DNA of 64,000 bases from Streptomyces caniferus. Its GTDB lineage: Bacteria > Actinomycetota > Actinomycetes > Streptomycetales > Streptomycetaceae. Numbering within the stretch: the first letter of the stretch is position 1; each line of letters begins with the position of its first letter. The position numbers and the translations under genes were made by a program. The notes below the pieces were generated by a model. The model had not been told where the DNA came from, did no database searches, and saw only the letters and a program-made list of their open reading frames with translations. This document shows positions 11,205-46,134 of the stretch, one piece after another. The stretch lies in the NCBI RefSeq assembly GCF_009811555.1, contig NZ_BLIN01000005.1, positions 2,179,501 to 2,243,500 on the forward strand, written 5' to 3'.

Positions 11205-11227
11205 ACGGTACGGGCGACCACTGACAG
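11205..11227 (-). promoter_or_regulatory. RecA-NDp/PafBC-type damage promoter before MFS pseudogene
   Basis: On the minus strand CTGTCAGTGG, a 7-nt spacer and TACCGT fit the bipartite damage-promoter pattern TTGTCRGTGG-N7-TAnnnT, with one mismatch in the first base. The -10 lies 36 nt before the start codon of the MFS fragment. Confidence 0.6.
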
Positions 11228-11335
11228 TCGCCCTCGGGCAGCTTCCCCGGCCGTCTCCTCGGAAGCGGCCCGGTGCGGCTCGGCACGGCCGGGGCGGGAG
11301 GAAACCGCCGCTCGCGAGGGCGCACGAACGCGAAC

Positions 11336-11373
11336 GGCCCGGCCGGAGGGCGGTGTGTCCCTCCGGCCGGGCC
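11336..11373 (-). terminator. Terminator after the RbpA-family gene
   Basis: A perfect 15-bp stem (11336-11350 with 11359-11373) with an 8-nt loop begins 22 bases beyond the stop of the RbpA-family gene at 11396. Confidence 0.85.
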
Positions 11374-11395
11374 GGCCGGTGCGTGTGCGGGTCCG

Positions 11396-11731
11396 TCAGA
11401 TCTCGCCGCGGAGCTTGGCGAGTGCCTCCGCGAGGATCGCCTCGCCGTCGGCGTCGCTGCGCCGCTCCCGGACGTAGGCGAGGTGGGTCTTGTACGGCTC
11501 GGTGCGCGGCGGGTCCGGCGGGCTCTCCCGGTCCTTGCCTGCCGGGAAACCACAGCGCGGGCAGTCCCAGGTGTCCGGAACCTGCGCGTCGCCGGCGAAG
11601 CTGGGCTGCGTCTCGTGCCCGTTGGAGCACCAGAAGGAGATGCGGGTGCGCGGCGCGGACTCGCCGCGCTCGGCCTCCCCCATCGGCCCCGCCCCGACCC
11701 GACTTCCTCGGATCGCGTTGCCACTTGCCAC
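11396..11731 (-). CDS. RbpA-family RNA polymerase-binding protein (RbpB-like paralogue)
   Basis: 111 residues. RbpA proteins bind RNA polymerase and the principal sigma factor and stabilise the open complex. A four-ligand zinc site is visible as C35-x3-H39 and C57-x2-C60 (WCSNGHE and DCPRCGF). The N-terminal NAIRGSRVG and the C-terminal EPYKTHLAYVRERRSDADGE align with the core and sigma-binding parts of RbpA, including the conserved E-R-R. The sequence differs clearly from the main Streptomyces RbpA (which starts MSERALRGTRLV), so I take it as the second paralogue. Start GTG at 11731, AGGGAG eight bases upstream. A strong terminator follows. Confidence 0.85.
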   Translation of the reverse strand: MASGNAIRGSRVGAGPMGEAERGESAPRTRISFWCSNGHETQPSFAGDAQVPDTWDCPRCGFPAGKDRESPPDPPRTEPYKTHLAYVRERRSDADGEAILAEALAKLRGEI

Positions 11732-11886
11732 GGTCGTAACTCCCTGCGTAATGGTGCTGCACAGCCTCTCGCAGCAGCTGCGCTGCGGAACGCCCCAGTC
11801 TACGTAAGGCCCAACGCGCGTCCAGTGGCTGGAGTTACCCGTCCGAGGACGCCTCCCTCATGATAGGCCGCGTCTCCGACGCTGTG

Positions 11887-12123
11887 TCAGTTGCCGAGCT
11901 TCATCAGAATGCCAAGCACGACAATGCAGGCGAACCACAACAGACCGATCACGATGGTGATGCGGTCGAGGTTGCGCTCGGCGACCGAGGAGCCACCGAC
12001 CGAGGACTGCATGCCGCCACCGAACATGTCGGACAGGCCGCCGCCCTTCCCCTTGTGCATGAGCACCAGCATCATCAGCAGCAGGCTGAAGACGATGAGG
12101 GCGATCGAGAACCCGATGACCAC
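11887..12123 (-). CDS. secG: Preprotein translocase subunit SecG
   Basis: Small membrane subunit of the SecYEG channel, 78 residues with two hydrophobic segments (residues about 2-22 and 54-73) joined by a glycine-rich cytoplasmic loop containing MHKGKGGGLSDMFGGG, the SecG signature. Start GTG at 12123; no strong ribosome binding site is visible. It lies downstream of tpiA, separated by a terminator-like hairpin, so it probably has its own promoter in the 140-bp gap. Confidence 0.95.
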   Translation of the reverse strand: MVIGFSIALIVFSLLLMMLVLMHKGKGGGLSDMFGGGMQSSVGGSSVAERNLDRITIVIGLLWFACIVVLGILMKLGN

Positions 12124-12188
12124 GGCTGGACCAACTCTCTAGGACTGACGGACGGACGTATGGATCACGATATCTGCACCAAAGGGTG

Positions 12189-12228
12189 CGGGGCCGGGGG
12201 CGGCGCTGCTGCACCGGTCCCGGCCCCG
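12189..12228 (-). terminator. Hairpin after tpiA
   Basis: A perfect 10-bp stem (CGGGGCCGGG / CCCGGCCCCG) with a 20-nt loop lies 37 bp past the tpiA stop and before secG. Confidence 0.6.
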
Positions 12229-12264
12229 ACAGGGTACGACGAGGGTTCCCCCTCGTCATAGCTG

Positions 12265-13041
<777 letters not shown>

Positions 13042-13046
13042 GTTGT

Positions 13047-14249
13047 TCAGTCCTCCAGAGCGGCAAGGCCGGGGAGCGTCTTGCCTTCGAGGTATTCGAG
13101 GCTGGCGCCGCCGCCGGTCGAAATATGGCCGAATGCATTCTCGTCGAAGCCCAGCAGGCGCACGGCAGCGGCCGAGTCACCGCCGCCGACGACGGTGAAG
13201 GCGTCCGAGTCCAGCAGACCCTGCGCGACGGCCTTGGTGCCGCCGGCGTAGTCGGGGTGCTCGAAGACGCCCATCGGACCGTTCCAGAAGACGGTGCCCG
13301 CGTCGGCGAGCTTCGCGGCGTAGAGCTCGCGGGTCTTCGGGCCGATGTCCAGGCCCTCCTTGTCGGCCGGGATGGCGTCCGCGGCGACGATGTCGGGGTT
13401 CGCCGGGGCCTTGGTCTTCAGGTCCGGGAACTCGGCGGAGACCAGCACGTCGACGGGGAGGACGAACTCCACACCGCGCTTCTCGGCCCGTGCCAGGTAC
13501 TCCAGGCAGACCGGGACCTGGTCCTCCTGCAGCAGCGAGATGCCGACCTCGTGGCCCTTGGCCTTGAGGAAGGTGTACGCCATGCCGCCGCCGACCAGGA
13601 TGCGGTCGGCCTTCTCGACGAGCTGGTCGATGACGGCCAGCTTGTCGGAGACCTTGGCACCACCCAGCGCGACGACGTAGGGGCGCTTGACGTTCTCGGT
13701 GAGCTTCTTGAGGACGGCGACCTCGGCCGCGATCAGGTCACCGGCAGCATGCGGAAGGCGCTGGGGCAGGTCGTAGACGGAGGCGTGCTTGCGGTGCACG
13801 GCGCCGAAGCCGTCGCCCACGTACAGGTCGGCGAGGGCGGCGAGCTGGTCGGCGAAGGCGCCGCGCTCGGCGTCGTCCTTGCTGGTCTCGCCGGCGTTGA
13901 AGCGGAGGTTCTCCAGCACCGCCACCTGACCGTCGGCGAGGCCCTCGGTCACGGAGCGGGCGGAGTCCCCCACCGTGTCGGTCGCGAAGGCCACGTCCTG
14001 CCCGAGGATCTCCCCCAGCCGCCGGGCCGCGGGGGCCAGCGAGAAGGCCGGGTCCGGGGCGCCCTTGGGACGGCCCAGGTGCGAGGCGACGATCACCTTG
14101 GCGCCGCGCTCGACGAGCTTGGCGATCGTCGGGGCGACGGCGCGGATCCGGCCGTCGTCGGTGATGGTGGTGCCGTCCAGCGGCACGTTCAGATCAGCGC
14201 GGACAAAGACGCGCTGTCCGGCGACCTGGAGGTCGTCGATCGTCTTCAT
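13047..14249 (-). CDS. pgk: Phosphoglycerate kinase
   Basis: Transfers the acyl phosphate of 1,3-bisphosphoglycerate to ADP. It has 400 residues from ATG at 14249 ([17 protein letters not shown]); an upstream in-frame start at 14282 would lack family support. The N-terminal signature [14 protein letters not shown], the ASHLGRPKG substrate loop and the nucleotide-binding [13 protein letters not shown] near the C-terminus are present. It is followed five bases later by tpiA and preceded by gap with a terminator-like hairpin between. Confidence 0.97.
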
Positions 14250-14283
14250 GAGGAAGTGACTCCGTTTGCGTAGGTCGGTCACG

Positions 14284-14329
14284 GGACGGGGCCCGTACGA
14301 CGCATCTTCGCGTCATACGAGCCCCGTCC
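14284..14329 (-). terminator. Hairpin between gap and pgk
   Basis: An outer 9-bp stem GGACGGGGC (14284-14292) / GCCCCGTCC (14321-14329) encloses a second, imperfect stem (GTACGACGC with GCGTCATAC). It sits in the 113-bp gap after gap, and could end or attenuate gap transcription ahead of pgk-tpiA. Confidence 0.65.
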
Positions 14330-14362
14330 TCACATCTCGGTGCCTCGGGTGTCAACCAGTGG

Positions 14363-15382
<1,020 letters not shown>

Positions 15383-15611
15383 TTAGGTACGCCGATGGGT
15401 CACCGGCGAGCTGTATGGGCTGTCCCCGACCGCCTCCGACCCTACCCCCAATAAGAGACGTACGTGACATTGACAAACGGGCCTCGATACCCTCAAACGA
15501 GCGCCCCCTGTCGCGTCCTTCGGCACCCGCCCGCGCCGCTCCCGACAGCACCGATCCGGGAGTGACACGAGGGCGTGAGAAGGACACCGGGGGCGAACGC
15601 GACGCGGGTCG

Positions 15612-16601
15612 TCAGCCGACCATGCCCTCGGCGAGTTCCTCGGTGAGGTTGGACTCCGTGCCGGGGATGCCGAGGTCCTGGGCGCGCTTGTCGGCCATCG
15701 CCAGCAGCCGGCGGATCCGGCCGGCGACGGCGTCCTTGGTCAGCGGCGGGTCGGCGAGGGCGCCCAGCTCCTCCAGGGAGGCCTGCTTGTGCTCCATGCG
15801 CAGGCGGCCGGCCGCCGCGAGGTGCTCGGGCACCTCCTCGCCCAGGATCTCCAGGGCCCGCTGCACCCGGGCGCCGGCGGCGACCGCGGCGCGCGCCGAG
15901 CGGCGGAGGTTGGCGTCGTCGAAGTTGGCGAGGCGGTTGGCGGTGGCGCGCACCTCGCGGCGCATCCGCCGCTCCTCCCACGCGAGCACCGACTCATGGG
16001 CGCCGAGCCGCGTCAGCAGCGCGCCGATGGCGTCACCGTCACGGACGACGACGCGGTCCACGCCGCGCACCTCGCGGGCCTTGGCGCCGATGCCGAGCCG
16101 GCGGGCGGCGCCGACCAGCGCGAGGGCCGCCTCGGGCCCGGGGCAGGTGACCTCCAGCGACGAGGAGCGGCCGGGCTCGGTCAGCGAGCCGTGGGCCAGG
16201 AAGGCGCCGCGCCAGGCCGCCTCGGCATCGCAGGTCGCGCCGGAGACCACCTGTGGTGGCAGCCCGCGGATGGGCCGGCCGCGGCCGTCCACCAGACCGG
16301 TCTGGCGCGCCAGCTGGTCCCCGCCGGCCACGACCCGGACGACGTAGCGGCTGCCGCGCCGCAGGCCGCCGGGGGCCATCACCACCAGGTCGGAGCTGTG
16401 CCCGAAGATTTCCAGGATGTCCTTGCGCAGCCGCCGGGCGGCGATGCCCGTGTCCAGCTCCGCCTCGATCACGATGCGCCCGCTGACCAGGTGCAGACCG
16501 CCCGCAAACCGCAGGATCGACGAGACCTCCGACTTCCGGCAGCAGGTCCGGGTGACGGGGAGCCGGGAGATTTCATCCTTCACCGCTGCCGTCATCGCCA
16601 T
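15612..16601 (-). CDS. whiA: Sporulation transcription regulator WhiA
   Basis: Needed in Streptomyces for the switch from aerial growth to sporulation septation, acting with WhiB. It has 329 residues: a degenerate LAGLIDADG-type N-terminal part ([20 protein letters not shown], then a repeat around [17 protein letters not shown]) and a C-terminal helix-turn-helix ([20 protein letters not shown]). ATG at 16601 overlaps the yvcK 3' end by ten bases; a second ATG at 16595 would give the classic ATGA overlap. It is the last gene of uvrC-rapZ-yvcK-whiA. Confidence 0.96.
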
Positions 16602-17653
16602 GGGCCGATCCTTCCATGCATCCGAAAAATACGGTCGTACGCGGCTGCCAGCAGCTCCGGGTCGTGCCGGTCGGGGGCTCCCCCGGCGCTCGACCGGGCG
16701 TCGTCTCCTTGTGCGGCGACCGCCGCCAGCTCGACCTCGCTGCCGACCAGCTGCTTGGCGGCAACCGTCAGACCTTCGATGTCGGGCACGGCGGCCTTGT
16801 CGGCCAGCACCACGTCGAAGGCGAGTTTAGGGGCGTGTCGGGCCAAAACCTCCAAATGACGCTGCGGGGAGAAGCCATCGGTTTCGCCCGGTTGGGGCGC
16901 AAGGTTGAGCGAAAGGACCTTTCGGGCCTTGGTCTCCTCCAGCGCTTCGCGCAGCTCGGGCACCAGCAGATGCGGGATCACGGAGGAGAACCAGGAACCC
17001 GGTCCGAGCACCACCCAATCGGCGTCACGCACCGCGGCGACGGCCTCCGGGACGGCCGGCGGGTCCTCGGGGACCACATGGACGGACTGCACCTCACCGC
17101 GGGTGAGCGCGACGGTGGCCTGGCCGCGGACCGTGGTGATCGCGTCCGGACGGCCCTCGTCATGGCCCTTGACCTGGGCCTGGAGCTCCAGGGGCACCGC
17201 CGACATGGGCAGCACCCGGCCGTGCGCGCCGAGCAGCTTGCCGACCAGGTCGAGCGCCTGGACATGGTCGCCGAGCTGCTCCCACAGGGCGACGATCAGC
17301 AGATTGCCGACCGCGTGGTCGTGCAGCTCGCCCTCGCTGGTGAAGCGGTGCTGGATCACCCGGGACCAGGTCTGGCCCCAGTCGTCGTCGCCGCACAGTG
17401 CGGCCAGCGCCTTGCGCAGGTCGCCGGGCGGCAGGACGCCCAGCTCGTCGCGGAGCCGGCCGCTGGAGCCGCCGTCGTCGGCGACCGTGACGACGGCGGT
17501 CAGGTCACCGGTGATACGGCGCAGCGCGGTGAGTGAGGCGGACAGGCCCATGCCGCCGCCCAGTGCCACCACCTTGGGGGTGGCCCCCTTCGTCATACGG
17601 CCGCTGGGTACGAGGCGCCGGACCCTGCGCAGCCGTGGGGCACGCCCGCTCAC
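16592..17653 (-). CDS. yvcK: YvcK/CofD-like gluconeogenesis factor
   Basis: 353 residues. Members of this UDP-sugar-binding family are needed for growth on gluconeogenic carbon sources and for cell shape in other Gram-positives. The motif [19 protein letters not shown] and then [20 protein letters not shown] mark the family. The GTG at 17653 overlaps the rapZ stop (GTGA); an internal ATG (MTKGATPK) 19 codons in is an alternative. The end overlaps whiA, and rapZ-yvcK-whiA is a widely conserved trio. Confidence 0.93.
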
Positions 17654-18594
17654 TCGCGCCCCATGTCCCGGTGGACGACGACGGTTTCCACCCCTTCGGA
17701 GACCAGCCGGCGGGCGAGCTTCTCGGACATCGCGACACTGCGGTGCTTGCCGCCCGTGCAGCCCACGGCGATGGTCACATAGCGCTTGCCCTCACGGCGG
17801 TAGCCCTCGGCCACGATCCGCAGCAGCTCGGCGTAGCCGTCCAGGAACTCCTTGGAGCCCGGCTGGCTGAAGACGTAGTTGGAGACCTCGTCGTTGAGAC
17901 CCGTGAAGGGGCGCAGCTCGGGGACCCAGTGCGGGTTGGGGATGAAGCGGCAGTCGATGACCATGTCGGCGTCGACCGGCAGGCCGTACTTGAAGCCGAA
18001 GGACATGACCGTGGCGCGCAGCTCGGGGACCTCTTCGCCGGCGAACTGGGCGTCCATCTTGGCGCGCAGTTCATGGACGTTGAGGCTGGAGGTGTCGATG
18101 ACCAGGTCGGCGTCGCCGCGCAGCTCGCGCAGCAGATCGCGCTCGGCGACGATGCCGTCGACGATCCGGCCGTCGCCCTGGAGGGGGTGCGGGCGGCGCA
18201 CCGACTCGAAGCGGCGCACCAGGGCCTCGTCGGAGGACTCCAGGAAGACGATGCGGCGCTTGACGTTCTGCGCGTCGAGGGTGGCCAGCGACTCCTTGAG
18301 GTTGGCGAAGAAGCGGCGGCCGCGGACGTCGACGACGACCGCGATCCGGGCGACGTTGCCCTGCGAGCGGGCGCCCAGCTCGACCATCGGGGCGATCAGC
18401 TCGGGCGGGATGTTGTCGACCACGAACCAGCCGAGGTCCTCCAGACACTTCGCGGCCGTACTGCGGCCGGCGCCGGACATCCCGGAGATGATCACCAACT
18501 CGGGGATCGCGGCGCTCTCGCCCTGGTCGGTCGTGCCCGTACTCACCTGTGCACCGTCTCTCTCGGTTTCCTGCGCTTCGTGCGGTGTGCTCAT
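17650..18594 (-). CDS. rapZ: RNase adapter / nucleotide-binding protein RapZ
   Basis: 314 residues with an N-terminal P-loop ([21 protein letters not shown]) and the conserved C-terminal domain with [16 protein letters not shown] and [21 protein letters not shown]. In enterobacteria RapZ guides an RNase to a small RNA controlling amino-sugar synthesis; the actinobacterial role is not established. The first 25 residues are a poorly conserved acidic extension. ATG at 18594 overlaps the uvrC stop (ATGA), so it is translated with uvrC. Confidence 0.94.
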
Positions 18595-20720
18595 CGTTCC
18601 TGCCCCCGTTCTGCCGACAACGCGGCCGGTGGGGCCCCGTCATCCTCAATGATCTCTCCTGTGGCGGTGTTCACCGCGGGGGCGGACGGCGCCGCCCCGG
18701 CGAGCGCCGCGGCGACCGTCTCCGCGGTCTTGCGGCCGACGCCCGGCACCTCGCAGATCTCGTCGACCGTCGCGGCCCGCAGCTTCTTCACCGAGCCGAA
18801 GTGTTTGAGCAGTGCCTGGCGGCGGGTGTCGCCGAGGCCGGCGACGGCGTCGAGCGGCGAGGACTTCAGCCGCTTGGTGCGCTTGCTGCGCTGGTAGGTG
18901 ATGGCGAAGCGGTGCGCCTCGTCGCGGACGCGCTGGAGGAGGTAGAGGCCCTCGCTGCTGCGCGGCAGCACGACCGGGTCGTCGTCCTCGGGCAGCCAGA
19001 CCTCTTCGAGGCGCTTGGCCAGGCCGCAGACCGCGACATCGTCGATGCCGAGTTCGTCCAGGGCCCGGCGGGCGGCCGCGACCTGGGGGGCGCCGCCGTC
19101 GACGACCACGAGCTGGGGCGGGTAGGCGAACCGCTTGGGGCGGCCGTCCTCGTCGGTCGGGCGGCCGGCCAGGGGGTCCGTCTCCAGGTCGTCGGCGAGG
19201 GCCGTGACCGGACCGCTGCCGGGTGTGACGCCGGTGTCGGGTGTGACACCGCTGCCGTTGACGCCGGTGCCGTCCGCGGGGGCGTTCCCGGCCGGCTCCT
19301 CCGTCCACTCGCCGGACTTCTGCTTCTCCTGGAGATAGCGCTTGAAGCGGCGGCCGATGACCTCGTGCATGGACCGGACATCGTCCTGGCCCTGGAAGGT
19401 CTTGATCTGGAAGCGGCGGTATTCGCTCTTCCGGGCGAGACCGTCCTCGAACACCACCATCGAGGCCACGACGTCGTCGCCCTGGAGGTGGGAGATGTCG
19501 AAGCACTCGATGCGCAGCGGTACCGCGTCCAGGCCGAGCGCCTCGGCGATCTCCTCCAGGGCGCGGGAGCGGGTGGTGAGGTCGGAGGCGCGCTTGGTCT
19601 TGTGCAGCGCCAGGGCCTGCTGGGCGTTGCGGCCGACCGTGGCCATCAGGTCCTTCTTGTCGCCGCGCTGCGGGATGCGCAGCGAGACCTGGGAGCCGCG
19701 GCGCTCGGAGAGCCACTGCGCGATCGGCTCGACGGGCTCGGGGAGCGCCGGGACCAGGACCTCCTTGGGGACGGCGTCGCCCCGCTCCTCGCCGTACAGC
19801 TGCTGGAGGGCGTGCTCGACGAGACCGCTGGTGGTGACGGCCTCGACCTTGTCCGTCACCCAGCCGCGCTGGCCGCGCACCCGGCCGCCGCGGACGTGGA
19901 AGATCTGGACGGCGGCTTCGAGTTCGTCCTCGGCGACGGCGATCAGATCGGCGTCCGTGGCGTCGGCGAGCACCACGGCGCTCTTCTCCATGGCCCGCTT
20001 GAGCGCCCCTATGTCGTCCCGCAGCCGGGCGGCGCGTTCGTACTCCATCTCCTCGGCGGCCTTCTGCATCCGGCGCTCCAGGCGGCGGATGTACGCGCCG
20101 GTGCGGCCGGCCATGAAGTCGCAGAACTCCTCGGCGAGTTCGTGGTGCTCCTCGGCGGAGACCCGCCCGACGCAGGGGGCCGAGCACTTGCCGATGTAGC
20201 CGAGCAGACAGGGGCGGCCGATCTGCGCGGAGCGCTTGAAGACGCCGGCGGAGCACGTCCGTACGGGGAAGACGCGCAGCATCAGGTCGACGGTCTCGCG
20301 GATGGCCCAGGCATGGCCGTACGGACCGAAGTAGCGCACGCCCTTCTTCTTGGCGCCGCGCATGACCTGGACCCGCGGGAACTCCTCGTTGAGGGTCACC
20401 GCGAGGTACGGATAGCTCTTGTCGTCGCGGTACTTGACGTTGAACCGCGGGTCGAACTCCTTGATCCAGGTGTATTCGAGCTGGAGCGCCTCGACCTCGG
20501 TGGAGACGACGGTCCACTCCACGGCGGCCGCGGTGGTGACCATCGTGCGCGTCCGCGGATGGAGGCCGGCCAGGTCCTGGAAGTAGTTGGCCAGGCGCTG
20601 GCGCAGGCTCTTGGCCTTGCCGACGTAGATGACCCGGCCGTGTTCGTCGCGGAACTTATAGACCCCCGGCGAGTCGGGGATCTGTCCCGGCTTGGGTCGA
20701 TAGCTGCTGGGGTCTGCCAT
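18591..20720 (-). CDS. uvrC: Excinuclease ABC subunit C
   Basis: Makes the dual incisions in nucleotide excision repair. About 709 residues from ATG at 20720 ([21 protein letters not shown]). Domains in order: GIY-YIG nuclease ([20 protein letters not shown]), cysteine-rich region, UVR motif ([20 protein letters not shown]), RNase H-like nuclease half and C-terminal helix-hairpin-helix pair ([30 protein letters not shown]). A low-complexity insert of about 45 residues rich in G, T, P and V lies near residue 490, encoded by short tandem DNA repeats. The damage-type promoter at 20728-20750 puts the -10 seven bases before the ATG, which predicts a leaderless mRNA. First gene of uvrC-rapZ-yvcK-whiA. 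Confidence 0.97.
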
Positions 20721-20727
20721 GCACACC

Positions 20728-20750
20728 ACCCTACTGACCGGGACCGACAA
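20728..20750 (-). promoter_or_regulatory. RecA-NDp/PafBC-type damage promoter of uvrC
   Basis: Minus strand TTGTCGGTCC (20750-20741), 7-nt spacer, TAGGGT (20733-20728). It matches TTGTCRGT and TAnnnT exactly; only the last two bases of the upstream box differ. Transcription would start at or next to the uvrC ATG. Confidence 0.7.
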
Positions 20751-27825: not shown

Positions 27826-28826
27826 TCGTCGTCGCCGGCGAGGCACTGATCGACCTCGTCCCCAGCCCGCAGGACACGTCCCCCTCCGTGGAGGGCCCGG
27901 GAGAAGCCCCCGCCGTGGACGGCCGGTTGCCGGCGCTGCTGCCGCGCCGCGGCGGCGGCCCGTACAACACCGCGGTCGCGCTGGGGCGGCTGGGCTCGCC
28001 CGCCGCGTTCTGCTCCCGGATCTCGACCGACAGCTTCGGCGAGGCGCTGCTCCAGGGGCTGCACCGCGGCGGTGTCGACACCTCCCTAATGCAGCGCGGC
28101 GGTGAGCCGACCACCCTCGCCGTGGCGGACATCAGTCCCGACGGGTCGGCGGGCTACGGCTTCTACGCGGACGGCACCGCCGACCGGCTCTTCACCCTGC
28201 CGCCGGCGCTGCCCGCCGCGGCCCGCGCGCTCTCCCTGGGCACCTGCTCGCTCGTCCTGGAACCGGGCGCGAGCGCGTACGAGTCCCTGCTGCGCCGCGA
28301 GGCCCGGCGCGGTGTCTTCACGGCGCTCGACCCCAACATCCGGCCCGGTCTGATCCCGGACCCGGACGCCTACCGGGCCCGTTTCCGCTCCTGGCTGCCC
28401 GATGTCGCCCTGCTGAAGCTGTCGGAGGAGGACGCCCTGTGGCTGGCCGGGGCCGGGGCCGGCGCCGCGCCGGGCGGCACGTGGGAGGCGGTCACCGCGG
28501 CGGCGAAGGAGTGGCTGGGCGCGGGGCCCGCGGCGATCGTCCTCACCCGTGGGGGCGACGGTCTGACGGTGCTGACGCGGGACGGCGGGGAGCTGACGGT
28601 CCCCGGCGAGCGGGTCACCGTCGTCGACACCATCGGGGCCGGCGACACGGTCAACGCCGCGCTCCTGCACCGCCTGGACGCCCACGACGCCCTGTCGTAC
28701 GCCGCCGTCGCGGCGCTCGGTGACGACGACTGGTACGACATCCTGCGCTTCGCCGCCCGCGCGGCCGCCGTCACCTGCTCCCGCGCGGGAGCGGAACCCC
28801 CGTTCGCCACGGAGCTGGCGGCGTAG
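27822..28826 (+). CDS. PfkB-family carbohydrate kinase (fructokinase-like)
   Basis: 334 residues. The N-terminal VAGEALIDLVPS, the GGGPYNTAVALGRLG substrate loop and the C-terminal signature DTIGAGDTVNAALL (catalytic Asp in GAGD) mark the PfkB/ribokinase family. Residues 18-40 are a proline-rich insert. A fructokinase role is likely: the neighbouring dehydrogenase would make a ketose from a polyol, and this kinase would phosphorylate it. The start GTG overlaps the LacI stop. Confidence 0.9.
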   Translation: MIVVAGEALIDLVPSPQDTSPSVEGPGEAPAVDGRLPALLPRRGGGPYNTAVALGRLGSPAAFCSRISTDSFGEALLQGLHRGGVDTSLMQRGGEPTTLAVADISPDGSAGYGFYADGTADRLFTLPPALPAAARALSLGTCSLVLEPGASAYESLLRREARRGVFTALDPNIRPGLIPDPDAYRARFRSWLPDVALLKLSEEDALWLAGAGAGAAPGGTWEAVTAAAKEWLGAGPAAIVLTRGGDGLTVLTRDGGELTVPGERVTVVDTIGAGDTVNAALLHRLDAHDALSYAAVAALGDDDWYDILRFAARAAAVTCSRAGAEPPFATELAA

Positions 28827-29017: not shown

Positions 29018-31999
29018 TCAGGAGGCCTTGCGGGCCCGCGCCGTCGTCTTCTTGGCCGCGGTCTTCTTAGCGGCCGTCGTCGCGGCAGTCTTCTTCGCCG
29101 CGGCCTTCTTGGCCACCGGCTTCTTCGCGGTGGCCCCTGTCGGCGCGGCATCGCTGACGCGGTCGCCGAGGATCTCCCGCAGGAACTTGCCGGTGTGGCT
29201 GGCCGGGATCGACGCGACGCCCTCCGGGGTGCCCTCGGCGACGACCAGGCCGCCGCCGTTGCCGCCCTCGGGGCCCATGTCGACGACCCAGTCCGCCGTC
29301 TTGATCACATCGAGGTTGTGCTCGATGACGATCACCGTGTTGCCCTTGTCCACCAGGCCGGACAGCACATTGATCAGCTTGCTGATGTCGTCGAAGTGCA
29401 GACCGGTGGTCGGCTCGTCGAGGACGTAGACCGTGCTGCCCGTCGAGCGCTTCTGGAGCTCGCTGGCCAGCTTGACGCGCTGCGCCTCACCGCCGGAGAG
29501 CGTCGGCGCGGACTGGCCGAGCCGGACATAGCCGAGGCCGACCTCGTTGAGCGTCTTGAGATGCCGGGCGATGGTCGGCACCGCCTCGAAGAAGCTCAGC
29601 GCCTCCTCGATGGGCATGTCCAGCACCTCGGCGATGGACTTGCCCTTGTAGTGGACCTCCAGCGTCTCCCGGTTGTAGCGCGCGCCATGGCAGACCTCGC
29701 ACGGCACATACACATCCGGCAGGAAGTTCATCTCGATCTTGATCGTGCCGTCGCCGGAGCAGTTCTCGCAGCGGCCGCCCTTGACGTTGAAGGAGAAGCG
29801 CCCCGGCAGGTAGCCGCGGACCTTGGCCTCCATCGTCTCCGCGAAGAGCTTGCGAACATGGTCGAAGACGCCGGTGTAGGTGGCCGGGTTGGAGCGCGGG
29901 GTGCGGCCGATCGGCGACTGGTCGACATGCACGACCTTGTCCACCAGGTCGTCACCGGCCACCCGGGTGTGCCGGCCCGGCACCGACTTGGCGCCGTTCA
30001 GCTCGCGCGCCAGGTGGGTGTAGAGGATGTCGTTGACCAGCGTCGACTTGCCGGATCCGGAGACGCCGGTGACGGCGGTGAACACCCCGAGCGGGAAGGA
30101 GACGTCGATGTCGCGGAGGTTGTTCTCCTTCGCGCCGTGGACCGTCAGCTGCCGGGAGGGGTCGGCGGGCCGCCGGATGTCCGGGGTCGCGATGGACTTC
30201 TTGCCGGAGAGGTACTGGCCGGTGATCGACTCCTTGGTGGCCAGCAGCTGCTTCATCGGGCCGCTGTGCACGACCTTGCCGCCGTGCTCGCCCGCACCGG
30301 GGCCGATGTCCACGACCCAGTCCGCGACCTTGATGGTGTCCTCGTCGTGCTCGACGACGATCAGGGTGTTGCCCATGTCGCGCAGCCGCACCAGGGTCTC
30401 GATCAACCGGTGGTTGTCGCGCTGGTGCAGACCGATCGACGGCTCGTCCAGGACGTAGAGCACGCCCACCAGGCCGGAGCCGATCTGGGTGGCGAGGCGG
30501 ATGCGCTGGGCCTCGCCACCGGAGAGGGTGCCGGCCGCGCGGTTCAGCGAGAGGTAGTCCAGGCCGACGTCGACCAGGAACTTCAGCCGCTCGTTGACCT
30601 CCTTGAGGACCCGCTCGGCGATCTTCTTCTCGCGGGCGGTGAGCCTCATGTCCCGCAGGAAGTCGGCGCAGTCGCTGATCGACATGGCCGCGACATCGGC
30701 GATCGACTTCTCCTGGACCGTGACGGCGAGCACGATCGGCTTCAGCCGGGTGCCCTCACAGGTCGGGCAGGGCACCTCGCGCATATAGCCCTCGAAGCGC
30801 TCCCGGCTGCTGTCGCTCTCCGCCTCGGAGTGCCGCCGCTTGACGAACGGGACGGCGCCCTCGAAGGGGGTGGTGTAGGCCCGCTGCCGGCCGTACCGGT
30901 TGCGGTAGCGCACCTCGATCTGGGTCTTGTGGCCGTTGAGCAGGGCCTTCTTGGCGCGGGTGGGCAGCCCGGCCCAGGGGATGTCCGTACGGAACCCGAG
31001 GGCGTCGGCCAGCGCGCCGACCAGGCGGCCGAAGTACTCCTTGGTGTGGCCGTGCGACCAGGGGTGGATGGCGCCCTCGTCGAGGGAACGGTCCTCGTCC
31101 GGGATGATCAGCTCGGGGTCGACCTCCATGCGCGTACCGATGCCGGTGCAGTCCGGGCAGGCGCCGAAGGGCGAGTTGAAGGAGAAGGAGCGGGGCTCCA
31201 GCTCCTCGAAGGAGAGATCGTCGTAGGCGCAGTACAGATGCTCGGAGTACATCCGCTCGCGCTGCGGGTCGTCCGCGTCCAGATCGACGAAGTCGAGGAT
31301 CACCATGCCGCCGGAGAGCCCGAGGGCCGTCTCGACGGAGTCGGTCAGCCGCCGCTTGGCGGTCTCCTTGACCGTGAGGCGGTCGACGACCACCTCGATG
31401 GTGTGCTTCTCCTGCTTCTTCAGCTTCGGCGGCTCGGAGAGCTGGATCGTCTCCCCGTCGACCCGGGCCCGGCTGTAGCCCTTGGTCTGGAGGTCGGAGA
31501 AGAGATCGACGAACTCGCCCTTGCGCTCGCGCACCAGCGGCGAGAGCACCTGGAAGCGGCTGCCCTCGGGGAGTTCGAGCACCTTGTCGACGATGGCCTG
31601 CGGCGACTGCCGGGCGATCGGCCGCCCGCACTCGGGACAGTGCGGCTTGCCGATACGGGCGAAGAGCAGGCGGAGGTAGTCGTAGACCTCGGTGATCGTG
31701 CCGACCGTCGAGCGCGGGTTGCGCGACGTCGATTTCTGGTCGATCGATACCGCGGGGGACAGGCCCTCGATGAAGTCCACATCGGGCTTGTCCATCTGCC
31801 CGAGGAACTGCCGGGCATAGGAGGAGAGCGACTCGACATAACGCCGCTGCCCCTCGGCGAAGATCGTGTCGAAGGCGAGCGAGGACTTGCCCGACCCGGA
31901 GAGCCCCGTGAAGACGATGAGGGAGTCGCGGGGGAGGTCGAGCGAGACGTTCTTGAGATTGTGCTCGCGAGCGCCACGGACGATGAGACGGTCGGCCAC
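29018..31999 (-). CDS. uvrA: Excinuclease ABC subunit A
   Basis: DNA damage-recognition ATPase of nucleotide excision repair, 993 residues from GTG at 31999 ([18 protein letters not shown]). Two ABC ATPase modules are complete: Walker [17 protein letters not shown] and [14 protein letters not shown]; signatures [12 protein letters not shown] and [12 protein letters not shown]. Zinc modules include [11 protein letters not shown] and [10 protein letters not shown] with [10 protein letters not shown]. The last 45 residues are an unusual lysine/alanine tail ([20 protein letters not shown]...). I see no SOS box and no RecA-NDp-type motif upstream, unlike uvrB and uvrC in this window. Confidence 0.97.
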
Positions 32000-36273: not shown

Positions 36274-36295
36274 TTGCGCCGTGTCGGCGGCGGCG

Positions 36296-37279: not shown

Positions 37280-37283
37280 TGCT

Positions 37284-37443: not shown

Positions 37444-37497
37444 AAAGAAGCGTAAAGGAAGGACAATGAATAGTAAAGAGATAGGTAAAATACCTGG

Positions 37498-39597: not shown

Positions 39598-39604
39598 CGT
39601 TGTT

Positions 39605-39658
39605 CCCCCTGGTGGTTGTGGCGTGCCCGGGCCGTACCCCGGGCACGGGCCCAGGGGG
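39605..39658 (-). terminator. Nested hairpin between terD and the TerD-fusion gene
   Basis: An outer stem CCCCCTGG / CCAGGGGG and an inner 10-bp stem CGTGCCCGGG / CCCGGGCACG form one long stem-loop in the 103-bp gap. It could end or attenuate terD transcription ahead of the fusion gene. Confidence 0.6.
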
Positions 39659-39700
39659 TCCGGCGGCGCGGCCCGGTACGCGCTGCCACGACGGTGGTGG

Positions 39701-40279: not shown

Positions 40280-40460
40280 GCGCCGTCCCCTCTCTGTACT
40301 GTCCCCGCCCAGCTTTCCGGCGGCCCCTTCGACCCTATGCACGACGGCGGGCCGAGGGCGTACCGGACCCGCGTTTTGTGGCGCTTCTGCAACACACCGG
40401 GCACCGCTGGACACACCCCGCTCACGTGCGGCGATACCGCCCCGTTGGCGGGTGTGCCCT

Positions 40461-40502
40461 GGGCGGTGTGATCCGCCCGGGCCGAGCAGCCGCACACCGC
40501 CC
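40461..40502 (-). terminator. Hairpin after uvrB
   Basis: A perfect 10-bp stem, GGGCGGTGTG (40461-40470) and CACACCGCCC (40493-40502), lies 31 bases past the uvrB stop. Confidence 0.65.
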
Positions 40503-40533
40503 CGGTGGTCCCCCTCGGCTGCTGCCGCTCCCC

Positions 40534-42666
40534 CTACTTCACCCCGGCCTCCCTCATTTGCCGCAGCTCCTTCTTCAGTTCGCCCACCTCGTCGCGCAGC
40601 CTGGCGGCGACCTCGAACTGCAGCTCGGCCGCGGCGGCCCGCATCCGCTCCGTCATCTCCTCGATCAGCTCGGCGAGTTCGGCGGCGGGACGGTCCGTCA
40701 GCGCCGCCCCCGCCTTGCCGCCCTTGCCCTTCGCGGCCTTTCCGCCGAGCGCCGGGACCGGCGCCTTGCCCTGGCCCTCCTTGGGCTCGGCGCCCTTGCG
40801 GTACCCCGTGCCCAGCAGCTCCCGGGTGTCGATCTCCTCGCGGGCGAGGGTGGCGACGATGTCGCCGATCTTCTTGCGGAGCGGCTGCGGGTCGATGCCG
40901 TTCTCCTTGTTGTACGCCAGCTGCTTCTCCCGGCGGCGGTTGGTCTCGTCGATGGCCTTCTCCATCGCCGGGGTGACCTTGTCGGCGTACATGTGCACCT
41001 GACCGGAGACGTTGCGCGCCGCACGTCCGATGGTCTGGATGAGCGCCGAACCGGACCGCAGGAAGCCCTCCTTGTCGGCGTCCAGAATGGCCACCAGGGA
41101 GACCTCGGGCAGGTCGAGGCCCTCACGCAGCAGGTTGATGCCCACCAGGACGTCGTACTCACCCGATCGCAGCTCACGCAGCAGCTCCACCCGGCGCAGG
41201 GTGTCCACGTCGCTGTGCAGATAGCGGACCTGGATACCGAGCTCCAGGAAGTAGTCCGTGAGGTCCTCGGCCATCTTCTTGGTGAGGGTGGTGACGAGGA
41301 TGCGCTCGTCCTTGTCCGTACGCGTACGGATCTCGTGCACCAGATCGTCGATCTGCCCGTCGGTGGGCTTGACCACCACCTCCGGGTCGACCAGACCGGT
41401 CGGCCGGATGATCTGCTCCACGAAGCCGTCACCCCTGGCGAGCTCGTACGAGCCCGGGGTCGCGGACAGATAGATGGTCTGGCCGATGCGCCCCAGGAAC
41501 TCTTCCCACTTCAGCGGCCGGTTGTCCATGGCGGACGGCAGCCGGAAACCGTGCTCGACGAGGGTGCGCTTCCGGGAGGCGTCGCCCTCGTACATGGCGC
41601 CGATCTGCGGGACCGTGACATGCGACTCGTCGATGACCAGGAGGAAGTCCTCCGGGAAGTAGTCGAGGAGGGTGTTGGGCGCGGAGCCGGGCTCGCGGCC
41701 GTCCATGTGCATCGAATAGTTCTCGATGCCCGAGCAGGAGCCGATCTGACGCATCATCTCGATGTCGTAGGTGGTGCGCATCCGCAGCCGCTGGGCCTCC
41801 AGATGCTTGCCCTGCTTCTCCATCGTGGCGAGGCTGTCCGCCAGCTCGGCCTCGATCCCGGCGATGGCCCGCTCCATGCGCTCCGGACCGGCGATGTAGT
41901 GGCTGGCCGGGAAGACGTACAGCTCCCGGTCGTCGCTGATGACCTCGCCGGTGAGCGGATGGAGGGTGGACAGCGCCTCGATCTCGTCGCCGAACATCTC
42001 GATCCGCACGGCCAGCTCTTCGTACACCGGGAAGATCTCGATGGTGTCGCCGCGCACCCGGAAGGTGCCGCGGGTGAAGGCCACGTCGTTGCGCGTGTAC
42101 TGGATGTCGACGAAGCGGCGCAGCAGCGCGTCCCGGTCGAACTCGTCGCCGACCTTCAGCGGCACCATGCGGTCGACGTACTCCTGCGGCGTACCCAGAC
42201 CGTAGATGCAGGACACCGAGGCGACCACGACGACATCACGCCGGGTGATCAGCGAATTCGTCGCGGAGTGCCGCAGCCGCTCGACCTCCTCGTTGACCGA
42301 GGAGTCCTTCTCGATGTACGTATCGGACTGCGGGACGTACGCCTCGGGCTGGTAGTAGTCGTAGTAGGAGACGAAGTATTCGACCGCGTTGTTCGGCAGC
42401 AGCTCTCGGAATTCGTTGGCGAGCTGGGCCGCGAGGGTCTTGTTGGGCGCCAGGACGAGCGTCGGGCGCTGCAGCTTCTCGATCATCCACGCGGTGGTCG
42501 CCGACTTGCCGGTGCCGGTCGCGCCGAGCAGGACGACATCCTTTTCACCCCCGCGGATACGCCGCTCGAGTTCGGCGATGGCCGTGGGCTGGTCGCCACT
42601 GGGCTGGAAGGGGCTGACGACCTCGAAGGGCGCCACCGTGCGTTCGATGCTTGATACGGGCCGCAT
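40534..42666 (-). CDS. uvrB: Excinuclease ABC subunit B
   Basis: Damage-verifying helicase-like subunit, 710 residues from ATG at 42666 ([20 protein letters not shown]). Walker [18 protein letters not shown], the beta-hairpin region [18 protein letters not shown], helicase motifs [18 protein letters not shown] and [19 protein letters not shown], and the C-terminal UVR motif ([20 protein letters not shown]) that binds UvrC are all present. The -10 of a damage-type promoter ends seven bases before the ATG, so the mRNA is probably leaderless. The frame stays open upstream to 43101, but that part has no family similarity. Confidence 0.97.
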
Positions 42667-42673
42667 GGGATCC

Positions 42674-42696
42674 ACCGTACGACTCGGCACTGACAA
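42674..42696 (-). promoter_or_regulatory. RecA-NDp/PafBC-type damage promoter of uvrB
   Basis: Minus strand TTGTCAGTGC (42696-42687), 7-nt spacer, TACGGT (42679-42674), nine of ten bases matching the upstream box. The predicted start is at or next to the uvrB ATG. Confidence 0.8.
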
Positions 42697-43330
42697 TCGA
42701 CGCAGCCAGCGCCCTGACCTGCGGTTGCGCGGTGTGCGGCGGCACCGGCGGGCGGGGGCAGGGCCGGCGATCGGTCGGGAGCTCCGGCCGGCAGGAGGCG
42801 ACGCGGGCGGCACGGGAGCAGGGGATGACGCGGGCGACGGGGGACGCGTGGCACGACGCGGCGCGGCGCGGGCGATGAACGCAGTGGGCGACAGGCGCGC
42901 GGACGACGGACGCGCGGGCCACGCGCGACGCCGAGCGCGGGACACCGCAGGGCCATGGCCCTCGGGCGCAGAAGCCGTACCGCACAAGCCGTACAGGAGA
43001 GCCGCCCGCTTCCCCCTCCGGCTCCGGACGGCCGGCCGTGAGCGCGACGCGCCGTGCGCGGAGCCGGCCGCGGCGGGTCGGCCCTTCGGGTGGTCGGCCA
43101 AAACCGTTCAGACGCACGAGGGGTGACGCATCATCGGCCAAGATGCGCGGATGCCGCGGCTCCGGCAAGTTGGACGGCGTCGGAGCGTACGTCTGTAGCA
43201 CGGCTGATCCGGGCATCCTGCAACTGCGCGTCGCTCCAAACGGAAACCGGCCACTTCCCGTTCAGCGCCCGGCAACTACACGACCGCCTCCCGCTACGGC
43301 CCGGCTGCGAGCCTCTGCCCGTCCGACCCG

Positions 43331-43370
43331 GTTCACGTCACTTCACGTCAGCTCACGTCCACGACGTCAC
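43331..43370 (+). repeat. Four 10-bp direct repeats before the phosphodiesterase gene
   Basis: GTTCACGTCA, CTTCACGTCA, GCTCACGTCC and ACGACGTCAC follow each other without gaps, ending just before the GAGGAG ribosome binding site. The TTCAC core resembles PHO-box half sites, but those repeat every 11 bp, not 10. Confidence 0.55.
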
Positions 43371-43381
43371 GAGGAGTCCGT

Positions 43382-44266
43382 ATGCGTATTCGCCCCGTCG
43401 CCACCGTTGTCGCCGGTGCGCTCATGGGTCTGTCCGCGCTCGCCCTCTCCACAACCGTCGTCCAGGCCGCACCCGCCGGACATCCTCCGGTGACGGTCGC
43501 CCACCGCGGCGCCTCGTCGTACGCGCCCGAGAACACCCTCGCCTCGATCGACGCGGCCGACCGGCTCGGCTTCGAATGGGTCGAGAACGACGTCCAGCGC
43601 ACCAGGGACGGCGAGCTGGTCATCCTCCACGACAACTCGCTCGCCCGGACGACCAACGTCGAGCAGGTGTTCCCCGGCCGCTCCCCGTGGAACGTATCGG
43701 ACTTCACGCTGAAGGAGATCGAGAAGCTGGACGCGGGCAGCTGGTTCGGGCCGAAGTTCCGCGGGGAGCGGGTGCCGACCCTCGAGGACTACATGGACGA
43801 GGTCGAGAACAACGACCAGAGTCTGCTGATGGAGCTGAAGTCGCCGGAGCTCTACCCCGGCATCGAGCTGCAGACCCTCACCGAGCTGCGCCGCGCGGGC
43901 TGGCTGGACAAGGGGCACGTCAAGGACCGTCTGATCATCCAGAGCTTCAATGCCGACGCGATCAAGACCGTGCACCGCCTGCGGCCGGAGGTCAAAACGG
44001 GCTTCCTCGGCAATCCGTCCGTCGCCGACCTCCCGAAGTTCGCCAAGTACTGCGACCAGATCAACCCCGTCCACACGGCGGTCACCCCGGAGTACGTCGC
44101 CGCCGTGCACGGCCTGAAGGGCCCGCACCGCCGGCCCCTGGACCTGTACACCTGGACCGTCGACGACGCGGCCACCGCGGTCAAGGTCGCCGGTCTGGGC
44201 GTCGACGGCATCATCACCAACAAGCCGGACGTGGTGCGTGACGCCCTGGGGGACTACGACGACTGA
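43382..44266 (+). CDS. Secreted glycerophosphodiester phosphodiesterase
   Basis: Splits glycerophosphodiesters from phospholipids into glycerol 3-phosphate and an alcohol. It has 294 residues with a signal peptide (cut near VVQAAPA). GDPD catalytic residues are visible: His41 in VAHRGASSYAPENT, Glu68 and Asp70 in FEWVENDVQ and His83 in VILHDNSLAR. It resembles Streptomyces GlpQ-type enzymes, which scavenge phosphate and glycerol outside the cell. ATG at 43382 has GAGGAG upstream. A terminator-like stem follows. Confidence 0.94.
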   Translation: MRIRPVATVVAGALMGLSALALSTTVVQAAPAGHPPVTVAHRGASSYAPENTLASIDAADRLGFEWVENDVQRTRDGELVILHDNSLARTTNVEQVFPGRSPWNVSDFTLKEIEKLDAGSWFGPKFRGERVPTLEDYMDEVENNDQSLLMELKSPELYPGIELQTLTELRRAGWLDKGHVKDRLIIQSFNADAIKTVHRLRPEVKTGFLGNPSVADLPKFAKYCDQINPVHTAVTPEYVAAVHGLKGPHRRPLDLYTWTVDDAATAVKVAGLGVDGIITNKPDVVRDALGDYDD

Positions 44267-44288
44267 GACCGGAGCCGCCGGGGACGGG

Positions 44289-44340
44289 GCGGCGGGACGG
44301 GGGCGGCGACAGCGACAGCGACCGATCCCTGTCCCGCCGC
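44289..44340 (+). terminator. Hairpin after the phosphodiesterase gene
   Basis: GCGGCGGGAC (44289-44298) and GTCCCGCCGC (44331-44340) form a perfect 10-bp stem with a long loop. Confidence 0.6.
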
Positions 44341-44341
44341 A

Positions 44342-44364
44342 CTGTCAGTGGTGCGTCCTACCCT
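44342..44364 (+). promoter_or_regulatory. RecA-NDp/PafBC-type damage promoter of ogt
   Basis: CTGTCAGTGG (44342-44351), 7-nt spacer, TACCCT (44359-44364). The GTG start at 44371 is six bases after the -10, so the transcript should be leaderless. Confidence 0.75.
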
Positions 44365-44370
44365 GATCAG

Positions 44371-44970
44371 GTGATGCATTCCGAGCAGGATTCCCACCCG
44401 GCGGCAGCGCCGGACGCCGCGCCGGAGGCAGCGGTGCCGGCCCCGCGCGACTGGGCCTGGACGCGGCTGGAGACCCCGATCGGCCCGCTGCTGCTCGCCG
44501 CGACCCGAAAGGGCCTGGTCCGCGTCGTCTTCCATGCCGACGAGCGGACGTCCCGCCGTGAGCTGACCCGTCTGGAGCAGTTCTTCGGCGGGGCGCCACT
44601 GGCCGCGCTCCCCCATCTGGCGACGGCCGCGGCCGAGCTCACCGCCTACTTCGCCGGAGAGCTCCGGTCCTTCACCGTCCCGCTGGACTGGTCGCTGTCC
44701 GCCGGCTTCCCCGCCCGGGTCCTCGGGGCCCTGGCCACCGGGGTCCCCTATGGCGCCGTCGTCGGCTACCAGGACCTCGCCGACCGGGTCGGGGAGCCGG
44801 GCGCCGCCCGCGCGGTGGGCGCCGCGATGGGCTCCAATCCGCTCCCGGTCGTCGTCCCGTGCCACCGTGTCGTGGCCAGTGACGGCGGCATCGGCGGCTT
44901 CGGCGGCGGGCTGGAGACCAAGCGTCTGCTGCTGGCCCTCGAAGGCGTGCTGCCCGCTCCGCTCTTCTGA
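44371..44970 (+). CDS. ogt: Methylated-DNA--protein-cysteine methyltransferase
   Basis: Repairs O6-alkylguanine by moving the alkyl group to its own cysteine. It has 199 residues from GTG at 44371 (ATG at 44374 also possible). The acceptor Cys164 is in VVVPCHRVVASDGGIGGFGG, preceded by the DNA-binding helix VPYGAVVGYQDLADRVGEPG. There is no Ada-type zinc domain; instead a 28-residue P/A-rich extension. The damage-type promoter directly upstream fits a role in alkylation repair. Confidence 0.94.
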   Translation: MMHSEQDSHPAAAPDAAPEAAVPAPRDWAWTRLETPIGPLLLAATRKGLVRVVFHADERTSRRELTRLEQFFGGAPLAALPHLATAAAELTAYFAGELRSFTVPLDWSLSAGFPARVLGALATGVPYGAVVGYQDLADRVGEPGAARAVGAAMGSNPLPVVVPCHRVVASDGGIGGFGGGLETKRLLLALEGVLPAPLF

Positions 44971-45022
44971 TCCCGACCGTCGTCCGCCCTCGCCGAGGCC
45001 GGCTCCTACGAATGGCAGCGCC

Positions 45023-45565
45023 ATGTCCCGTCAGATCGCTCTGCTCCGCGGCATCAATGTCGGCGGCCACAACTCCTTCCCCAAGGCGAAGCAGCTGGAG
45101 CTGGCCGAGTCCCTGGGCTTCCAGGACGTCTCGGTGCTCCTGCAGACCGGCAACATCGTCTTCGCCGACCCGGGTACTCCGCCGTCCGAAACCGCCCGGG
45201 TGCTCCACGACCGGATCGCCGACGAGCTCGGCCTGACGGTGCCGGTCATCGTCCGGACCCGCGACGAGCTGGCCGCCGCCGTCGCCGCGAACCCGTTTCC
45301 GCAGGCCGTACCGGAGCCCAAGAGCCTGCACGTCACGTTCCTGTCGGCGGTGCCGGCCGACACCTCCCGGCTGGATGCGCTCGACCCGGCCGCGTTCGCG
45401 CCCGACCAGTACCGGCTGATCGGGCGCGAACTGTATTTGTGGTGCCCCGGCGGCATCGGCCGCTCCAAGCTCGCCGAGGTGGTGGGCCGCGCCCGCCTCG
45501 GGGTGACGGCCACCGCCCGTAACTGGAACACCGTCAGCAAGCTCCTGGCGCTGGCCGACGCCTGA
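45023..45565 (+). CDS. DUF1697 family protein
   Basis: 180 residues from ATG at 45023 (MSRQIALLRGINVGGHNSFP). The opening ALLRGINVGG followed by VSVLLQTGNIVFADPG, and the C-terminal CPGGIGRSKLAEVVGRARLG then TATARNWNTVSKLLAL, define DUF1697. Biochemical role unknown. It follows ogt by about 50 bp on the same strand and may be co-transcribed with it from the damage-type promoter. Confidence 0.9.
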   Translation: MSRQIALLRGINVGGHNSFPKAKQLELAESLGFQDVSVLLQTGNIVFADPGTPPSETARVLHDRIADELGLTVPVIVRTRDELAAAVAANPFPQAVPEPKSLHVTFLSAVPADTSRLDALDPAAFAPDQYRLIGRELYLWCPGGIGRSKLAEVVGRARLGVTATARNWNTVSKLLALADA

Positions 45566-45584
45566 GGCCCCGAAGGCCGGGCCG

Positions 45585-46046
45585 TCAGCGCCAGCCGTAG
45601 CGCTCGCGCAGCCGGTTGACGACCAGGTTGAAGCGGCCCCGGTCCAGCGCGCAGGCCTCGCGCCGCATTCCGGCCGGGTGCACCCGCAGCACCCGGTCCA
45701 CGGCCACCCATGAGTCGCGCCCCGCGCGGTCCCACGGGCCGGTCCCGAGGGGGACCCACTCCCGGTCGTTGTTGTGCCGCTTGCTGGACAGCTGCACGGC
45801 CAGCAGCGTCCCGCCGGTCTCCCGGGCGACGACCAGCACGGGGCGGTCCTTGCCCCGGCCGTCGTTCTCCTCGTACGGCACCCAGGTCCACACGATCTCG
45901 CCGGGGTCCGGGTCGCCGTCGGGGTCGGGTGCGTAGGACATCTTTACGGTGCCGACGGACCGCGGCCGGGCCTCCACGGTCGCGGTGGGTCCCTGGCTGC
46001 CGGGCAGCGCGGCGGGTTCGTCGGATGCGTTGAATGAAGTGGTCAC
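45585..46046 (-). CDS. Solitary PemK/MazF-like (CcdB-barrel) protein
   Basis: 153 residues. After a 45-residue disordered N-terminus the core PGEIVWTWVPYEENDGRGKD, RPVLVVARE, LSSKRHNNDREWVPLGTGPW and DSWVAVDRVLRVHPAGM follow the MazF beta-barrel order, including the G-x-I-W start and the K-D-R-P turn. No antitoxin gene is adjacent: the neighbours are DUF1697 (convergent) and a WGR-domain gene (divergent). So it is either an orphan toxin-like RNase or a domesticated family member. GTG start at 46046. Confidence 0.8.
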   Translation of the reverse strand: MTTSFNASDEPAALPGSQGPTATVEARPRSVGTVKMSYAPDPDGDPDPGEIVWTWVPYEENDGRGKDRPVLVVARETGGTLLAVQLSSKRHNNDREWVPLGTGPWDRAGRDSWVAVDRVLRVHPAGMRREACALDRGRFNLVVNRLRERYGWR

Positions 46047-46111
46047 GGGCTCACGCTAACCGCCGCCGCCGGCGCGGCGATCAGCGGTCCCGCCCGGCGG
46101 TCCGGGCTCGA

Positions 46112-46134
46112 TTGTCAGTGGTCGGCCGTACGGT
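46112..46134 (+). promoter_or_regulatory. RecA-NDp/PafBC-type damage promoter of the WGR gene
   Basis: TTGTCAGTGG (46112-46121), 7-nt spacer, TACGGT (46129-46134): a full match to the mycobacterial recA damage-promoter layout and the best copy in this window. It leads into a 48-nt leader before the start at 46183. Confidence 0.85.

Follow-up and report, generated by a model that had tools for sequence, protein, structure and literature searches.

A 64,000-nt stretch of the Streptomyces caniferus genome (hereafter, the window) carries five sites, one of them degenerate, with a two-part promoter element of the kind known from mycobacteria as RecA-NDp and read there by PafBC; they lie upstream of an MFS transporter gene, uvrC, uvrB, ogt and a gene for a WGR-domain protein. 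A sequence-only reading of the window had described them by the pattern TTGTCRGTGG-N7-TAnnnT, and it had both the coordinates and the orientation toward the named genes right. Gene identities were assigned by Pfam (UvrB, Ogt, WGR, MFS fragment, UvrC, RbpA), and the features are as follows.

10449..11168, minus strand: truncated MFS transporter gene, 239 aa; Pfam MFS fragment
11205..11227, minus strand: CTGTCAGTGGTCGCCCGTACCGT, RecA-NDp-type site upstream of the MFS gene; exact to TGTCRGTG-N8-TAnnnT
11396..11731, minus strand: rbpA, RNA polymerase-binding protein; Pfam RbpA; conserved neighbour of the MFS gene
18591..20720, minus strand: uvrC; Pfam UvrC_RNaseH_dom, GIY-YIG, UVR
20728..20750, minus strand: TTGTCGGTCCCGGTCAGTAGGGT, degenerate site at uvrC; -10 and 7-nt distance to the ATG conserved, upstream element not
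40534..42666, minus strand: uvrB; Pfam UvrB, UvrB_inter, UVR
42674..42696, minus strand: TTGTCAGTGCCGAGTCGTACGGT, RecA-NDp-type site of uvrB; exact to TGTCRGTG-N8-TAnnnT, 7 nt before the ATG
44342..44364, plus strand: CTGTCAGTGGTGCGTCCTACCCT, RecA-NDp-type site of ogt; exact to the same consensus, 6 nt before a GTG and 9 nt before an ATG
44371..44970, plus strand: ogt, O6-methylguanine-DNA methyltransferase; Pfam DNA_binding_1, Methyltransf_1N
46112..46134, plus strand: TTGTCAGTGGTCGGCCGTACGGT, RecA-NDp-type site of the WGR gene; exact, also to the literal ten-base pattern
46156..47613, plus strand: gene for a WGR-domain and beta-propeller protein; Pfam WGR and propeller; likely start, from alignment, ATG 46183 behind GGGGAGGGG

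The ten-base pattern fared less well than the sites themselves: the WGR site matched it exactly, the MFS, uvrB and ogt sites departed from it by one base and the uvrC site by two. With this single exact match it was discarded as a search pattern for being too narrow. At up to two mismatches the window held six matches against an expectation of 0.49, a number reached by none of 100 dinucleotide shuffles. Across the 60 genome sites described below, the tenth base of the element was G in 40, C in 18 and T in 2; since this position is free, the useful consensus is TGTCRGTG-N8-TAnnnT, which is exact at four of the five window sites (MFS, uvrB, ogt and WGR) and is missed once at uvrC, where C replaces the last G.

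Searching the 9.15-Mb genome with this consensus returned 60 exact sites, and with the reversed pattern none. When the gap was freed to 3-13 nt there were 64 matches, 60 of which kept exactly 8 (reversed control of the looser pattern, 12), and one-mismatch sites numbered 116 versus 11 for the control, so that sites outside the exact set are a mixture. Each of 101 genomes of the genus, this one included, contained between 17 and 85 sites, for a total of 4716 against 52 in the control; checked in this way, the pattern did not show the similar density elsewhere that the sequence-only reading had named as evidence against it. No column upstream of the element was conserved over the 60 sites, in line with a promoter that has no -35 box. 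The fifth core base was A in 48 of the 60. Most sites read from other families had G instead (29 of 32 readings in family f3 of the class, taken from three genomes and 30 stretches, two sites being read twice), and among 20 sites in two further genomes of the genus 10 had G; A or G here is therefore no clean genus difference. This A/G variation might weaken a search made with a mycobacterial matrix.

The same census bears on the description of the five copies as a local regulon. 'Local' is not supported, because the 60 exact sites are scattered over the genome, with four of them in the window and in front of separate transcription units. Under random placement anywhere in the genome, five sites within 35 kb (uvrC counted) had P ~0.004, four exact sites within 35 kb 0.08, and three exact sites (uvrB, ogt and WGR) within 3.5 kb 0.015; repair genes are somewhat clustered in the window, yet the sites serve separate genes of a genome-wide regulon.

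Conservation was read gene by gene. The uvrB site was kept in 22/22 relatives with a readable gene start, the start codon lying 6-7 nt after the -10, and the ogt site in 9/9. The two genes that the sequence-only reading had offered as new candidates both hold up, and none of the relative loci that were read lacks the site: in front of the MFS gene it was found within one mismatch in 29/29 relatives, and upstream of the WGR gene in 29/29 relative loci from the genus genome set and in 80/80 named relative loci, or 109/109, although the two WGR sets may share species. These named loci were the best 80 of 353 relatives; 78 are labelled Streptomyces, 68 sites being exact and 12 having one mismatch. 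At the WGR and MFS loci a motif-anchored alignment was used to compare flanks, which were variable, with element and -10 constant across relatives; the 29/29 counts were not motif-anchored.

uvrC had been presented as an equal member, and here the comparison went the other way. A uvrC match occurred in 61/61 genomes, of which 30 were sampled and two were left out (start not located), leaving 28 loci, own included. All 28 have the -10 GTAGGGT with an ATG 7 nt on; the upstream element was within one mismatch in only 6/27 relatives (7/28 with our own locus) and is not conserved. The uvrC promoter is best regarded as one of leaderless type whose upstream element is weak or decaying. The uvrC site, and the exact agreement of just one site in five with the literal pattern, are what could be expected if the five sites were chance matches in GC-rich DNA, but the reversed controls and the conservation of four of the five genes' sites in every relative locus read make this explanation scarcely credible for the set; chance is already excluded for four sites and possible for uvrC.

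To assign targets, the first plausible gene behind each of the 60 exact and 7 variant sites was taken, Pfam was run on 57/60 and 5/7 of these, and names were read from the domains. By a strict reading, repair or replication genes stood behind 17/60 sites, counted at these sites alone: recA, ung, rarA, ruvC, a PD-(D/E)XK (RecB-type) nuclease, a RecD2-type HHH protein, uvrB, pcrA, xseA, a DinG-type helicase, a UvrD-like helicase, an xthA-type nuclease, an RNase_T exonuclease, ogt, AlkZ, dnaX and an HhH-GPD glycosylase. A looser count adds ThyX, MazG, a DEAD helicase and a weakly DarG-like protein (21/60). Targets outside repair comprised a radical-SAM protein (FO synthase-like), two proteins of MDMPI type, two MFS transporters, a pPIWI-associated nuclease and several uncharacterised proteins. 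Three single sites are recorded here for their targets. Site L066 (G000:C5:3779921-3779942) is exact and lies with its -10 6 nt ahead of the ATG of the radical-SAM/CofH-type gene, likely an FO synthase; FO is an antenna pigment of photolyase, and the site would tie the pathway to light repair. Site L019 (G000:C5:1506516), also exact, is 8 nt ahead of the gene with the pPIWI_RE-associated nuclease domain, possibly a damage-linked defence gene. Variant site L075 (TTGTCAGAGG..TAGGCT; G000:C5:1816400-1824500) lies before the gene for a DEAD/DSHCT helicase, a few kb past pafB-pafC.

GAAC-N4-GTTC is the LexA/SOS box. In its strict form, the only one searched, it was present within -200 to +150 of 0/67 sites (60 exact, 7 variant), and the window had one match, at 28794, against an expectation of 0.65. 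In S. venezuelae, recA and ruvC are under LexA control, and a LexA peak has been reported at uvrA (PMC9380542, in part). The uvrA gene of the window (29018-31999, minus strand) was rejected as a member, its best match up to 401 nt upstream having five mismatches; with no such site near its start, uvrA and uvrB therefore seem to be under different control.

The genome encodes adjacent, intact pafB and pafC, whose products match chains in the solved PafBC structures 7p5x, which we take to be the M. smegmatis polymerase complex, and 6sj9 (7p5x: 8e-57 and 3.7e-56). As both proteins are encoded here, RecA-NDp/PafBC-type promoters are the best explanation of the sites, and the identification made from sequence alone fits in motif, spacing, repair targets and the presence of pafB and pafC. 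The motif with its fixed spacing, its excess in genome and genus, its conservation at single genes, the repair-rich targets and the intact adjacent pafB and pafC were observed directly; from them we infer PafBC binding, induction by damage, the positions of transcript starts and the lack of leaders, and we put at about 0.87 the probability that the sites are RecA-NDp-type damage promoters that act independently of RecA and are used by housekeeping RNA polymerase with PafBC. In M. smegmatis, single-stranded DNA activates PafBC, which works by sigma adaptation (PMC11804915, in part). In mycobacteria the single-stranded DNA is bound by the WYL domains of PafBC, PafB touches the -26 element and PafC sigma domain 4, and the promoter functions through its -10 without a -35; the mechanism is probably shared by the sites described here. 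Transcription would then start some 6-9 nt past the -10, a position which in over half of cases is the start codon, so that the mRNA would be leaderless; in M. tuberculosis, a RecA-NDp start has been mapped just past the motif and is mitomycin-inducible (PMC2897130, in part).

A set of 396 genomes from the phylum, tallied by hand, gave a PafB match in all 38 genomes with at least 7 sites, and at most 5 sites in the 108 without a PafB match. This co-occurrence is supportive only, because it is confounded by phylogenetic relatedness and by WYL proteins of a generic kind, and because 250 genomes with a PafB match hold fewer than 7 sites. The latter count weighs against a PafBC reading, as do four other points: the element at uvrC is not conserved; no convincing gene was found behind some of the 60 sites (L018, L052, L060, L062, L071); the M. 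smegmatis motif was reported, after an initial search, as not conserved in S. venezuelae (PMC9380542, in part); and, according to one report, ClgR recognises the P1 region in mycobacteria (PMC5656591, in part). This last report, and the 12 WYL matches in the genome, would suit a different activator, ClgR or another WYL protein, reading the element in place of PafBC. We regard that as unlikely, given that in an M. smegmatis pafBC deletion P1-driven recA transcription was absent and uvrB expression 37% lower (same source, in part), and given the intact, adjacent PafB and PafC genes of this genome.

An alternative sigma factor using the two blocks as its -35 and -10 boxes is a very unlikely reading of the same sites. 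The two-block motif did come from a program that seeks sigma-factor sites (PMC2375139, in part), but the gap of ~11 nt between TTGTCA and TAnnnT is, by general knowledge, too short for a sigma spacer, and mycobacteria employ the housekeeping sigma factor at such promoters (PMC11804915, in part).

In this genome an ATG or GTG opening a plausible gene lay 6-9 nt past the -10 at 33/60 sites, judged by position only, against a mean of 3.4 over 21 other four-base windows; unfiltered, the count was 39/60 versus 5.5. Without a gene filter, 2825 of the 4716 sites in the 101 genomes of the genus (60%) were so placed. A lower share, 7/20 versus a control mean of 1.95, came from 20 sites, the first by position, in two further genomes of the genus; the same genomes taken whole gave 36/59 and 28/39. 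The placement recurred in other families of the class (f3 13/32, f5 13/20, G161 9/10; control means 3.15, 1.6 and 1.3, respectively). For the WGR and MFS genes of this genome, the predicted transcripts include a leader.

From these positions, uvrB, ogt and many further repair genes are predicted to have leaderless mRNAs. Leaderless transcripts make up 21% of the primary starts in S. coelicolor (PMC4895711, in part). Rv1955, a mycobacterial gene with a RecA-NDp promoter, carries a leader of ~50 nt, so that not every member is leaderless (PMC2897130, in part). Among the titles and abstract beginnings of the open-licence literature, we found no report tying leaderless mRNAs to PafBC or to DNA repair, and a study of leaderless mycobacterial transcripts mentions neither DNA repair nor recA (PMC4633059). 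We tentatively propose, rather against the odds, that in Streptomyces, and probably the whole class, the PafBC response may be mainly a leaderless-mRNA programme, combining activation and start-codon placement in one unit of ~30 bp; its accessory members would include a WGR-propeller protein, possibly a reader of DNA ends, an efflux pump linked to rbpA, which might remove the damaging agent from the cell, and an SNF2 helicase whose element is a variant. Were this so, the joining of activation and start-codon placement would allow repair proteins to be produced under damage without Shine-Dalgarno initiation, and the predicted mRNAs would connect damage control with an unusual start of translation.

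The sites have precedents. The ultraviolet-inducible recA promoter of Streptomyces rimosus reads TTGTCAGTGGC-N6-TAGggT (Ahel 2002, quoted in PMC2375139, in part), and recA here carries TTGTCAGTGGCAGGCGTTAGCGT (L002), with the same bases and spacing; where that work dealt with recA, the present data take in 60 places of a single genome and, by census, 101 genomes. The SIGffRid program listed 67 S. coelicolor genes with TGTCAGT motifs, including uvrB, ung and recQ (PMC2375139): the motif family is the same, the targets overlap and uvrB was already predicted, but the passage in question lets the spacer vary, unlike the fixed spacing found here, and analyses neither the whole genus nor the position of start codons. 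With the mycobacterial RecA-NDp/PafBC regulon the element, spacing, repair targets and PafBC genes are all in common. The macrodomain gene SCO6735 has also been placed under a RecA-NDp promoter (PMC5087735, PMC9411070, both in part). The gene at site L010, with an ATG 6 nt past the -10, has a weak DarG-type match (37 bits, cut-off 250) and no macrodomain match in a Pfam scan; it is probably the SCO6735 counterpart, and hence already known.

Published work thus already covers the motif, its connection with DNA damage in Streptomyces and its uvrB target (PMC2375139, in part), and the WGR or MFS gene may be in the 67-gene table of that paper. As far as our searches show, what is new is the census across the genus, the placement of sites relative to start codons, and the membership of the WGR, MFS and SNF2 genes with their conserved sites. 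A PafBC-type damage response of Streptomyces, independent of RecA and LexA, was left open in 2022 (PMC9380542, in part). Genus-wide sites bear on this point, since that study had reported non-conservation of the motif; the contrast holds at the level of the genus, with sites in 101/101 genomes, whether or not S. venezuelae is one of these. The set is a known kind of DNA-damage promoter, present some 60 times in the genome, genus-wide and usually so placed that transcripts would open with the start codon, to which two genes not known for repair clearly belong; it provides a ready list of testable promoters, several of them in front of uncharacterised genes.

The WGR domains found in eukaryotic PARPs bind breaks in DNA; a break-reading role for the WGR protein is a guess. 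Its gene has a full-length match in 38/101 genomes of the genus, with a weak match only in 5 more, and 30 loci were read, own included; the best named relatives are Streptomyces such as S. sioyaensis (89-91% identity), and mean column identity over 25 sequences was 81%. The structural model of the product has a mean predicted local distance difference test score (pLDDT) of 72, and the 50 matches listed by Foldseek were propellers of unrelated kinds, many of them designed. The neighbouring 1701-aa open reading frame (47620-52725) was rejected as an operon partner, being an antisense-like frame mostly without domains and with a flavin domain near its end only. In two relatives (L097, L109) an in-frame ATG of the WGR gene lies 7 nt after the -10, so that the same gene is seemingly leaderless there and leadered elsewhere.

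The MFS gene has matches in 91/101 genomes of the genus, many of them paralogues, and the best 30 loci were read; in 30/30, own included, it adjoins rbpA. An open frame of at least 403 aa was found in 28/29 relatives, versus 239 residues in the window copy, for which the term pseudogene is reasonable. In relatives the promoter precedes an apparently intact transporter gene. The end of the truncated gene (window 10449-10520) resembles a dispersed Streptomyces repeat, as an impression only.

A sixth, imperfect site, absent from the list of the sequence-only reading, faces an SNF2 helicase gene and points away from the UvrD-like gene at 60099.

56522..59674, minus strand: SNF2-family helicase gene (DUF3670); Pfam SNF2-rel_dom, DUF3670, Helicase_C
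59933..59955, minus strand: TTGTCAGTGCTGTCTGCTTCCAT, imperfect sixth site upstream of the SNF2 gene; element present, TTCCAT instead of TAnnnT

The true start of the SNF2 gene may lie ~300 nt further in, because most relatives match from residue 90-107. Thirty orthologous loci were read, own included: 23 have xTGTCRGAC at the same spacing from a TAnnnT -10, one has the exact consensus, three (own included) have TTGTCAGTG with TTCCAT and three have no element, which gives 27/30 with a variant or intact form. The SNF2 gene is thus a probable member with a variant element, of which the window copy appears degenerate. To judge from the form xTGTCRGAC-N8-TAnnnT (L334-L359), PafB may accept a change of bases where the element ends, or there may be a second subclass of site.

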